Assembly (NCBI RefSeq): GCF_007992495.1
Contig: NZ_BKAJ01000018.1
Coordinates: 1-64,000 of the forward strand
Length of the DNA stretch: 64,000 bases
Reading direction: 5' to 3'
Origin: Reyranella soli
Lineage (GTDB): Bacteria; Pseudomonadota; Alphaproteobacteria; Reyranellales; Reyranellaceae
Shown: one piece after another, positions 59,792 to 64,000 of the stretch
Layout: every line of letters begins with the position of its first letter
Numbering within the stretch: position 1 is the first letter of the stretch
Notes under the pieces: generated by a model
The model's database searches: none
Told to the model about the DNA's origin: nothing
Seen by the model: the letters and a program-made list of their open reading frames with translations, nothing else
Made by a program: the position numbers and the translations under genes

Positions 59792-60787
<996 letters not shown>

Positions 60788-60798
60788 CGGAGCGAAGA

Positions 60799-61512
60799 AT
60801 GAACGACTTTGCCGGGAAGAATGTCCTTGTCCTGGGCGGCAGCCGCGGCATCGGCGCCGCCATCGTCCGCCGGTTCGCCGGCGGCGGCGCCAGGGCCGCC
60901 TTCACCTATCTCGGCTCGTCAGACGCCGCCCTGGCGCTCGCCAAGGAAACTGGTTCGGAGGCACTCAAGGTCGATAGCGCCGACCGGAAGGCGCTGATCA
61001 AAGCCGTCGCCGATCGCGGCGCGTTGGACGTCATCGTGATCAGCGCCGGCGCCCTGGTGATGGGCGATCCGCTCAGCCTCGACCCCGAGGCTGTCGACCG
61101 ACTGATCGACGTCAACGTGAAGGCACCCTACCACGCCGCCGTCGAGGCAGCGCGGCGCATGCCCGACGGCGGCCGCATCGTCGTCATCGGCTCGACCAAC
61201 GGCGATCGCATCCCATTTGCCGGCGGCGCGGCCTATGCGCTCAGCAAGTCCGCCATGCAGGGCATGGTGCGCGGCTTGGCACGCGATTTCGGCGCGCGCG
61301 GAATCACGGTCAATGCCATTCAGCCTGGACCTACCGACAGCGACATGAATCCGGCCAGCGGCCCGATGGCCGAGACCATGCATAGCTTCATGGCCATTAA
61401 GCGCCATATCCGGCCGAGCGAGATTGCCGACTACGTAGCCTTCATCGCCGGACATCAGGCCGCCATGATCACCGGGTCGCTACAGATGATCGACGGTGGC
61501 TTTGCGGCATAG
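60799..61512 (+). CDS. Short-chain dehydrogenase/reductase
   Basis: A 237-residue SDR starting MNDFAGKNVLVLGGSRGIGAAIVRRF with the cofactor motif GGSRGIG. The ISAGALV element, catalytic Ser in VIGSTNGD and YALSKSAMQGM (Tyr, Lys) follow, and the C-terminal GSLQMIDGGFAA is typical of FabG-like SDRs. The upstream MBL-fold and hydrolase genes are on the same strand and closely spaced; no joint pathway can be named. Confidence 0.87.
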   Translation: MNDFAGKNVLVLGGSRGIGAAIVRRFAGGGARAAFTYLGSSDAALALAKETGSEALKVDSADRKALIKAVADRGALDVIVISAGALVMGDPLSLDPEAVDRLIDVNVKAPYHAAVEAARRMPDGGRIVVIGSTNGDRIPFAGGAAYALSKSAMQGMVRGLARDFGARGITVNAIQPGPTDSDMNPASGPMAETMHSFMAIKRHIRPSEIADYVAFIAGHQAAMITGSLQMIDGGFAA

Positions 61513-61519
61513 CAATCAT

Positions 61520-61535
61520 TCAACCAATTGGTTGA
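61520..61535. promoter_or_regulatory. ArsR-type operator, upstream copy
   Basis: Perfect 16-base palindrome TCAACCAATTGGTTGA, overlapping the -35 element of the arsR-like promoter. It shares the CAACCA...TGGTTG core with the second operator 37 bases downstream. Confidence 0.8.
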
Positions 61536-61559
61536 CAATCGAGCGGCCTCTCCTATATT
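61532..61559 (+). promoter_or_regulatory. Promoter of the ArsR/SRPBCC pair, leaderless
   Basis: TTGACA (61532-61537), a 16-base spacer and TATATT (61554-61559) form a near-consensus promoter. Transcription would start about seven bases later, at or next to the ATG (61567), so the mRNA has essentially no leader. Both flanks are covered by operator palindromes. Confidence 0.8.
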
Positions 61560-61576
61560 CAACCATATGGTTGAAT
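61557..61576. promoter_or_regulatory. ArsR-type operator overlapping the start codon
   Basis: Perfect 20-base palindrome ATTCAACCATATGGTTGAAT. Its right half begins with the start codon ATG of the regulator, so repressor bound here would cover the -10 element, transcription start and first codons. Confidence 0.82.
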
Positions 61577-61938
61577 TAGAAACCCCGCAGCTCGACTCCG
61601 TCTTCCACGCCCTGGGCGACGCCACGCGCCGGCGCATGCTGCGCGAGCTTTCCGAGGGCGAGCGGACGGTCGGCCAGCTCGCCGAGCCCTTCTCGATCTC
61701 GCTGGCGGCAGCGTCCAAGCACATCAAGGCGCTGGAGAATGCCGGCCTCATCCGGCGCGAGGTGCGCGGCCGCACCCACCTCTGCCATCTCGAACCCGGG
61801 CCGCTCGCCAGCGCGCACCAATGGCTGATCTACTACGAGCGCTACTGGAGCGACCGGCTCGCTCGCCTCGAGAAGCTCCTACTCGAGGAGGGCACCAGGA
61901 AATCCCCGCCCGCCAAGAAGGAGACGACCGATGAGTGA
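61567..61938 (+). CDS. ArsR-family transcriptional repressor (SdpR-like)
   Basis: A 123-residue winged-helix repressor: MVELETPQLDSVFHALGDATRRRMLRELSEGERTVGQLAEPFSISLAAASKHIKALENAGLIRREVRGR. The helix-turn-helix SLAAASKHIKALENAGL and the wing are typical. No ArsR metal-binding cysteine motif (CVC) is present, so it is a non-metal type, often paired with SRPBCC proteins. The ATG at 61567 lies inside a perfect palindrome; the upstream in-frame ATG at 61528 lies in the promoter and is rejected. It overlaps the next gene by eight bases. Confidence 0.9.
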   Translation: MVELETPQLDSVFHALGDATRRRMLRELSEGERTVGQLAEPFSISLAAASKHIKALENAGLIRREVRGRTHLCHLEPGPLASAHQWLIYYERYWSDRLARLEKLLLEEGTRKSPPAKKETTDE

Positions 61939-62464
61939 CGCCACGACCGTCGATCCCTATGGCCTGCTGACCGAGCCGGCCACCCTGAAGATCCAGCGAC
62001 TGCTGCCCGGCCCGCTCGAGCGCATCTGGGTCTACCTCACCGAGAGCGACATGCGCCGCAAGTGGCTGGCCTCGGGCTTCATGGAGATGAAGGTCGGCGC
62101 GCCGTTCGAACTGGTGTGGCGCAACAACGAGCTCACCGATCCGCCCGGCCAGCGCCCGGAAGGCTTCGGCGAGGAGCATCGCATGCAGAGCCGCATCACC
62201 GAGCTCAATCCGCCGCACAAGATCTCCTTCACCTGGCAGAACAGCGGCGACGTCACCTTCGAGCTCGAGCCCAAGGACGACAAGGTGCTGCTCACCGTCA
62301 CCCATCGCCGCCTGCCCGACCGGCGCACCATGCTGATGGTCGGTCCGGGCTGGCACATGCACCTCGACGTGCTCGCCGCGCGCGTGAGCGGCGCCGAGAT
62401 CGGCCCGTTCTGGGACGGCTGGCTGCGCCTGCAGAAGGAATACGAGAAGCGTCTGGCGACGTGA
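61931..62464 (+). CDS. SRPBCC (AHSA1-type) domain protein
   Basis: A 177-residue START-like protein: LKIQRLLPGPLERIWVYLTESDMRRKWLASGFMEMKVGAPFELVWRN, with a hydrophobic cavity fold. The C-terminal GPFWDGWLRLQKEYEKRL is standard for the AHSA1 group. It is translated directly after the ArsR regulator (overlap of eight bases), and that regulator probably controls it. The ligand is unknown. Confidence 0.88.
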   Translation: MSDATTVDPYGLLTEPATLKIQRLLPGPLERIWVYLTESDMRRKWLASGFMEMKVGAPFELVWRNNELTDPPGQRPEGFGEEHRMQSRITELNPPHKISFTWQNSGDVTFELEPKDDKVLLTVTHRRLPDRRTMLMVGPGWHMHLDVLAARVSGAEIGPFWDGWLRLQKEYEKRLAT

Positions 62465-63055: not shown

Positions 63056-63135
63056 GCTGCGGTTTTATCAGGTCGAGGGAGGCTGGCGCGACGGCGTTTT
63101 CGGCCTATATGGTCTCTACTCCACAGGAGCAGACG

Positions 63136-63585
63136 ATGCCGACTTACGCCAAGACCAAAGAGGCCCTGTCGAAACTCACGCCCGAGCAGTACCGCGTCAC
63201 CCAGCAGAGCGGCACCGAGATGCCCGGCACGGGTCCGCTGCTGCACAACAAGGAACCGGGCATCTATGTCGACATCGTCTCGGGCGAGCCATTGTTCGCC
63301 TCGTCCGACAAGTATGAATCGGGCTGCGGCTGGCCCTCTTTCACCAAGCCGATCGAGCCTGCCAACGTCGCCGAGCTCAGCGACGCCAGCCACGGCATGA
63401 TCCGCACCGAGGTGCGCTCCAAGCACGGCGACAGCCATCTCGGCCATGTCTTTCCCGACGGGCCGCGCGATCGCGGCGGCCTGCGCTATTGCATCAATTC
63501 GGCCTCGCTGCGCTTCGTCCATCGCGACGACATGAAGGCGGCAGGCTATGGTGACTATCTCGACCAGGTGGAGGACGTGCGATGA
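63136..63585 (+). CDS. msrB: Peptide-methionine (R)-S-oxide reductase
   Basis: Repairs R-methionine sulfoxide in proteins. From ATG 63136 (CAGGAGCAGACG upstream) it has 149 residues: [21 protein letters not shown], then [30 protein letters not shown] and the catalytic [11 protein letters not shown]. The two CxxC zinc sites found in many MsrB proteins are missing (the first reads [10 protein letters not shown]), so it is the zinc-free type. Its stop overlaps the msrA start. Confidence 0.95.
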
Positions 63586-64000
63586 GCCAAGAACGCGCAG
63601 TGCTGGCCGGCGGCTGCTTCTGGGGCATGCAGGACCTGATCCGCAAGCAGCCCGGAATCCTGACAACGCGGGTCGGCTACACCGGCGGCCATGTCGCCAA
63701 TGCGACCTACCGCAACCATGCCGGCCACGCCGAAGCGATCGAGATTGTCTACGATCCGGCCAAGACCAGCTTCCGGCAGATCCTGGAATTCTTCTTCCAG
63801 ATCCACGATCCGACGACGCTGAACCGCCAGGGCAACGACCTCGGTACCAGCTATCGCTCGGCGATCTTTTATACCGACGACGAGCAGCGCCGGATTGCCG
63901 AGGACACCATCGCCGACGTCGAGGCCTCGGGCCTGTGGCCCGGCAAGATCGTGACCGAGGTGACCAAGGTTTCCGACTTCTGGGAAGCCGAGCCCGAGCA
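63582..64000 (+). CDS. msrA: Peptide-methionine (S)-S-oxide reductase, 3' end outside window
   Basis: Repairs S-methionine sulfoxide. The first 139 codons are present: [18 protein letters not shown] with the catalytic GCFWG motif (Cys about 12), then [29 protein letters not shown] and [16 protein letters not shown], all diagnostic of MsrA. The ATG overlaps the msrB stop by four bases, so both oxide forms are handled by one operon. The gene continues past the end of the window. Confidence 0.95.

Follow-up and report, generated by a model that had tools for sequence, protein, structure and literature searches.

The arsR gene described here and an overlapping AHSA1-domain gene very probably form a leaderless, autorepressed operon in which an operator is part of the arsR coding sequence. 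Comparison with homologues suggests that the same design recurs, with half-sites that match the recognition helix of each locus's own protein. An ArsR autorepressor is of an ordinary kind; what is new in this arrangement is that an operator has its centre at the start codon and that a specificity code can be read. The locus lies in a window of 64,000 nt, which is the whole stretch of DNA that was analysed, and its features are listed in Table 1.

Table 1. Promoter, operator and gene features of the arsR locus in the window
Feature	Position	Strand	Description
O1	61520-61535	none	16-bp perfect palindrome TCAACCAATTGGTTGA
-35 element	61532-61537	+	TTGACA
-10 element	61554-61559	+	TATATT, 16-base spacer after the -35
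O2	61557-61576	none	20-bp perfect palindrome ATTCAACCATATGGTTGAAT; arms 8, centre 4
ATG	61567-61569	+	start codon; predicted (leaderless) transcription start
arsR (P0001)	61567-61938	+	123-residue winged-helix repressor; recognition helix residues 46-58
Shine-Dalgarno of the AHSA1 gene	61918-61923	+	AAGGAG, seven bases before its ATG
AHSA1-domain gene, SRPBCC type (P0002)	61931-62464	+	overlaps arsR by 8 bases; AHSA1 67.2 bits

The sequence-only reading had described TTGACA, 16 bases and TATATT, followed by two perfect palindromes of 16 and 20 bases, and all of these were read in the DNA as claimed. Some details changed. The ATG had been placed eight bases after the -10; seven bases lie between them, and the ATG starts at the eighth. 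O1 overlaps the -35 that it was said to cover, but its right arm provides only the first four of the six bases. O2 reaches codon 4 as stated, taking in only its first base, and on the other side includes the last three bases of the -10. Its axis runs between 61566 and 61567, that is, between position -1 and the A of the ATG, and codons 2 to 4 (GTT GAA TTA) make up its right arm. Neither this placement of the axis nor the recurrence of the design with changing sequence was part of the earlier reading. A promoter scan of 1.7 kb returned a single site with 11 of 12 matches, the TTGACA/TATATT pair of arsR (0.3 expected). In contrast to the AHSA1 gene, arsR is preceded by no Shine-Dalgarno-like sequence.

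The pattern TTCAAC-N6-GTTGAA, from which O1 deviates by one mismatch, was used to estimate how rare these sites are. With up to one mismatch it occurred at two places in the window, which were O1 and O2 (0.03 expected from 100 shuffles). The perfect pattern was present once in the 9.85-Mb genome, as O2, and up to one mismatch gave seven genome sites including O2 and O1, compared with four for a reversed control pattern. The shorter core CAACCANNTGGTTG had three exact genome places: O1, O2, and a third inside an unrelated coding frame, presumably that of a periplasmic binding protein. The search for more CAACCA-TGGTTG palindromes that had been proposed earlier gave a third exact core in an unrelated frame and no further good site. 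As no third good site was present, O1 and O2 look private to the arsR-AHSA1 operon; a wider regulon, sought in the 9.85-Mb genome with TTCAAC-N6-GTTGAA at up to one mismatch, did not appear.

The class of the regulator was clear from profile matches above the cut-offs for ArsR/SmtB winged-helix proteins (NF033788, 73.5 bits with a cut-off of 55; HTH_20, 52.4 with 27; HTH_5, 46 with 22). An AlphaFold2 model with a mean pLDDT of 92 had a winged-helix fold with a long terminal helix, and its best PDB match was 3f6o (TM 0.69-0.70 of the query). The match to the SdpR profile NF033789 was 53.1 bits, below the cut-off of 100, which none of the 15 matches in the genome reached. The cysteine pair of the classical alpha-3 metal site, the motif of metal-sensing ArsR/SmtB proteins, was absent from P0001, whose single cysteine, C73, lies in the wing region. 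Residues 1 to 5 had neither helix nor strand in the model, and the first ten residues averaged a pLDDT of 71 compared with 95 to 98 in the core, so that the first five residues need not matter for the fold if the model is correct. With a downstream, overlapping AHSA1/SRPBCC gene the locus has the gene arrangement of arsR-AHSA1 operons of the Rv2034 type. Upstream on the same strand are a metallo-beta-lactamase-fold gene and an SDR gene (59792-61512), the latter ending 54 bases before the arsR ATG, and read-through from the SDR gene into arsR is possible. Downstream lie a SelR-domain (MsrB) gene at 63109-63585 and an overlapping open frame at 63582-64000, which we take to be MsrA-like.

Close relatives were collected as 80 loci from one protein scan, in which MVELETPQ was one of six retrieval patterns and may have favoured these residues, but not their codons. 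The ATG, O1 and O2 were all kept in 74 of the 80, and the other six were remote or partial matches; this conservation argues that the arrangement is not due to chance. The 74 comprised 69 Alphaproteobacteria, 2 Betaproteobacteria and 3 unassigned loci, with Mesorhizobium (19) and Agrobacterium (9) over-represented. The distance from the O1 axis to the ATG was 40 bases in 45 loci, 39 in 28 and 41 in one; the spacer between -35 and -10 was 17 bases in 45, 16 in 28 and 18 in one. The right arm of O1 loses its symmetry in the last two bases, giving TTGACA or TTGACT as the -35. The latter was present in 39 relatives and the former in 28, with other forms in 7, while the -10 was TATATT in 54. None of the 74 had GGAG, GAGG or AGGA at -18 to -4. 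An in-frame ATG lay upstream in 19 relatives, and 50 had some open in-frame start between -33 and -45.

The absence of a Shine-Dalgarno motif from all 74 relatives and the spacing of 16 or 17 bases in 73 of them lend comparative support to the leaderless start proposed in the sequence-only reading. The first codons, which that reading had taken to be constrained by the operator as well as by the protein, are so on the comparative evidence. Codon 2 was GTT in 74 of 74 relatives, compared with 33 of 289 Val codons elsewhere in the same genes. Codon 3 was GAA in 71, and codon 4 was TTA in 61, although not one of 1107 other Leu codons was TTA. The G+C content at the third positions of codons 2 to 4 was 0 to 1%.

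A wider sample of homologues was assembled by protein similarity alone. It combined the matches of a more distant family member in Alphaproteobacteria (82 of 241 genomes) with the loci of further searches. The resulting 331 loci were reduced to 297 with a tblastn match and to 266 after merging identical contexts; 182 of these were kept as protein-search finds, and 181 had a usable start and upstream region. Since the merging kept the lower locus number, two palindromic loci, L153 and L156, moved from the 181 to the test set described below. A locus was called palindromic if arms of 8 around a centre of 4 had at least 7 of 8 pairs and the axis fell precisely on the start codon's first base. Such palindromes were present in 38 of the 181 loci, compared with a mean of 0.43 and a maximum of 4 at 100 other offsets. 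When relaxed to 6 of 8 pairs the number rose to 67 (mean 2.06 and maximum 10 at 85 other offsets). Over all 181 loci, positions -k and +k (k from 4 to 11) were complementary at 4.02 of 8 pairs, while permuted left halves gave 2.61 (sd 0.10, maximum 2.96 in 2000 permutations) and registers shifted by 1 to 4 gave 1.55 to 2.35. The 38 palindromic loci spanned 25 family codes and 27 genus codes. As 143 of the 181 homologues had no 7/8 palindrome on the chosen start, the design is common but not general.

The palindromic loci had 12 versions of codons 2-3, among them GTTGAA, GTTAAG, GTTAAC, CTTAAC, CCTAAC, GATAAC, GCTATA and GTTCAG, and the upstream halves were complementary to them at 7 or 8 of 8 pairs. 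The corresponding N-termini were MVEL, MVKY, MVNY, MLNY, MPNY, MDNY, MAIY, MVQY and similar. Val2 occurred in 31 of the 38 palindromic, 18 of 41 intermediate and 1 of 102 non-palindromic loci. GTT accounted for 30 of the 31 Val2 codons in the palindromic loci but for only 17 of the 202 Val codons further along the genes. A promoter at leaderless distance was recognised in 26 of 38, 22 of 41 and 6 of 102 loci of the three groups, and a Shine-Dalgarno in 0, 0 and 8. In all 26 palindromic loci with a recognised promoter the -10 ended exactly at -8, which extends the probable leaderless start to the wider family. For the 38 loci, 34 downstream genes were found; 20 of them had a Shine-Dalgarno in front, and AHSA1 was present in 28. 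A phylogenetic tree had 15 changes of codon 2-3 type among the 38 loci and 22 changes of palindromic state, with support too weak for a test of independent pairs. A test on sister pairs with differing right arms gave 12 of 22 differences, which points neither way, and is biased, as its rows had been chosen for being palindromic.

A second site with matching arms (at least 12 of 16) was present in 11 of the 38 loci, compared with 23 of 464 foreign-arm controls. O1 is typical of the close subgroup and not family-wide.

Other arrangements were also seen. The 181 loci had a small second palindrome peak at offset -22, with 4 loci at 7/8 and 10 at 6/8, which may mark a variant whose operator lies ahead of the start codon. 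In the alphaproteobacterial locus L046 the ATG palindrome is perfect over 21 bases on each side (42 bp), so that even the -10 has its mirror image in the first codons. Locus L301 has a second palindrome, ACTTAGCTGTTGAACTAAGT, upstream of arsR, with its axis at position -35 and a -35-like TTGAAC in its centre, which is another route to merging operator with promoter. A scan with the pattern TTNAACNNNATGGTTNAA matched 65 of 385 genomes; this figure is not taken as a count, since a single genome has 77 copies of an unrelated repeat. This alphaproteobacterial genome, G044 (e.g. L339-L342), contains 77 copies (46 + 31) of TTGAACNNNATGGTTCAA. Four of these copies were examined and lay inside longer inverted repeats, with no relation to ArsR seen.

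To relate operator to protein, all operator bases were compared with all protein columns, starting at residue 8, in the 67 loci that passed the 6-of-8 threshold. The top column was K51 for position +4, A48 (then S45) for +5 and A47 for +7, all three within helix 46-58. At residue 51, K or R went with G at +4 in 53 of 54 loci, and all 12 loci with Q had C there. At residue 48, A or G went with T at +5 in 52 of 52, while each of the 15 loci with S or T had C (13) or A (2). At residue 47, P went with A at +7 in 42 of 43 and A with G in 17 of 17; all these figures include shared descent among the loci. Residues 51 and 48 still led when the non-coding left arm was used alone. For -7 the top column was V66, in the wing, followed by A47. 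The same columns led when the loci were thinned by genus, helix and site, which left 52, while in the 102 non-palindromic loci columns 51, 48 and 47 were not leading.

The rule was then applied to a test set of 44 loci, 40 of them additional places from one of these protein searches, fetched after the rule was fixed, and 4 others. Seventeen were palindromic, and 44 of 46 base calls were right: 17 of 17 at +4, 16 of 17 at +5 and 11 of 12 at +7, where five residues at position 47 lay outside the rule and gave no call. Guessing the commonest base would have been right in 15, 12 and 5 of the 17 loci, respectively. Both misses fell in one locus, L379, whose non-coding arm fits the rule. L153 and L156 had been retrieved with a DNA pattern in which +4 and +5 are fixed, and are not independent at these positions; when they were left out, 15 of 15, 14 of 15 and 10 of 11 calls were right. 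Four test loci with GTTCAG share one helix and may be close relatives. The claim that both palindromes are operators of the gene's own regulator gains support from this covariation of operator bases with the recognition helix of the same gene's protein, and from the lack of another good site in the genome.

Several other explanations of these observations were considered. The transcript might start further upstream, from another promoter or by read-through from the SDR gene, and the protein might start at an in-frame TTG at 61528. The SDR gene has the same orientation and stops close by, at 61512, the frame is open from this TTG, and the in-frame starts at -33 to -45 in 50 of 74 relatives would agree with such a start. 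However, it appears improbable, as none of the 74 relatives has a Shine-Dalgarno and the -35 and -10 are conserved at a leaderless distance. Furthermore, the distance between the O1 axis and the ATG varies among 39, 40 and 41 bases (28, 45 and 1 loci), so that the frame of any start inside O1 is not kept, and across the wider family the start codon and its palindrome shift jointly with respect to the protein domain. Control of translation by an RNA hairpin is very improbable. The palindrome overlaps the AUG and could pair in a longer transcript, but its left arm would be untranscribed with the predicted start, and there was no Rfam match. Nor was there an excess of wobble pairs among the 65 mismatches of the 67 loci (11 G-T compared with 19 A-C), and the bases track a DNA recognition helix.

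That helix also bears on whether the palindromes belong to a different regulator. Positions +4, +5 and +7 were best predicted by recognition-helix residues of the protein from the same locus and not by other columns, the helix rule held on further loci, and the genome has no other good site, all of which makes a foreign regulator very improbable. A palindrome that merely coincides with selection for an A+T-rich start in leaderless translation would fit the composition of codons 2 to 4, with 75% A+T in palindromic loci compared with 45% in the others, and a TTA at codon 4 that the palindrome mostly leaves uncovered. Composition, however, produces neither complementarity at one offset only (4.02 of 8 compared with 1.55 to 2.35 in shifted registers) nor G/C changes matched on both sides. 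Taken as the sole cause, an A+T-rich start is hardly credible, although it may act as an added constraint.

The leaderless, autorepressed operon would work as follows. An ArsR dimer on O2 would cover the -10 as well as the start codon and the site where transcription begins, while a second dimer on O1 would block the -35. Free RNA polymerase would begin transcription on the A of the ATG or one or two bases from it. The arsR message would be translated without a leader and the AHSA1 gene by way of its ordinary Shine-Dalgarno. With the axis of O2 on the A of the ATG, codons 2 to 4 would represent one operator arm, and residues 2 to 4 would be a by-product. The axes of O1 and O2 are 39-40 bp apart, or about 3.7 turns, so that the dimers would sit on different faces of the DNA and a side-by-side contact is not obvious. 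Other members of the family would use other half-sites, each fitting the recognition helix of its own protein. We infer autorepression by ArsR bound to its own promoter from the comparative sequence data, and the leaderless start from the agreement between the promoter position and the absent Shine-Dalgarno.

In the literature covered (titles and the beginnings of abstracts, in a library with few subscription papers), no ArsR operator centred on a start codon was recognised. Lambda cI and Tn1721 tetR, which belong to other protein families, have leaderless messages under their own operators, and neither is known to have a start codon on the operator axis. Both are named as leaderless repressor mRNAs in the available text on CvkR of Anabaena, itself a repressor translated from a leaderless mRNA and with a short palindromic binding motif, but of the MerR type and with no operator placed on its own start codon in that text (PMC9938897). 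In Cupriavidus metallidurans, arsR is among the leaderless mRNAs detected by start-site mapping; according to the part of the source consulted, it belongs to a metal-responsive ars operon, in which it differs from the present gene (PMC7563307). Brucella ArsR6 footprints its own promoter, and Rv0081 binds -40 to -1 of Rv3334, as given in the respective excerpts (PMC8509827; PMC6177252). SdpR of Nocardia terpenica, an SdpR-type ArsR protein, resembles the present case in having two boxes in its own promoter. These boxes have 14 nt, however, and are placed otherwise relative to the start sites, and the protein governs a biosynthetic cluster (PMC12185567). No autoregulation was seen despite binding to its own promoter, in the portion of that paper available, which counts against the present reading (PMC12185567).

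The closest studied case found is Rv2034 of Mycobacterium tuberculosis, a dimeric ArsR-type autorepressor co-operonic with Rv2035, which has a polyketide_cyc2 domain (PMC3338718). Its operator, CCGTAAGT-N4-ACTTACGG, was footprinted beside its start codon; an ArsR-type repressor, operator arms of 8 around a centre of 4 and a co-operonic partner gene are thus common to both loci, and Rv2034 did not respond to the metals tested as far as the accessible text reports (PMC3338718). It differs in having one palindrome, with protection from -30 to +3 of the coding strand, and in regulating dosR, phoP and groEL2 as well. From the quoted sequence, its palindrome would lie just upstream of the start codon and not be centred on it. 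The word 'leaderless' does not occur in the text of this paper (PMC3338718).

It is likely that a broad group of ArsR regulators has its operator written in the coding sequence in this way, so that N-termini such as MV[EKN], MLN, MPN, MDN, MAI and MVQ represent an operator imprint and the operator can be read from the gene and predicted from the helix. A shift of specificity by way of residues 47, 48 and 51 would then mean that residues 2 and 3 of the regulator must change as well. As operator and recognition helix are paired in each such locus, protein-DNA specificity would become readable without experiments in a very large and mostly uncharacterised regulator family. The locus would also be a clean case of a transcription factor site that dictates coding sequence, and one that misleads measures of N-terminal conservation and start-codon calls. 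It further offers a possible reason for the existence of leaderless repressors, since the operator may then cover promoter, start site and start codon together.
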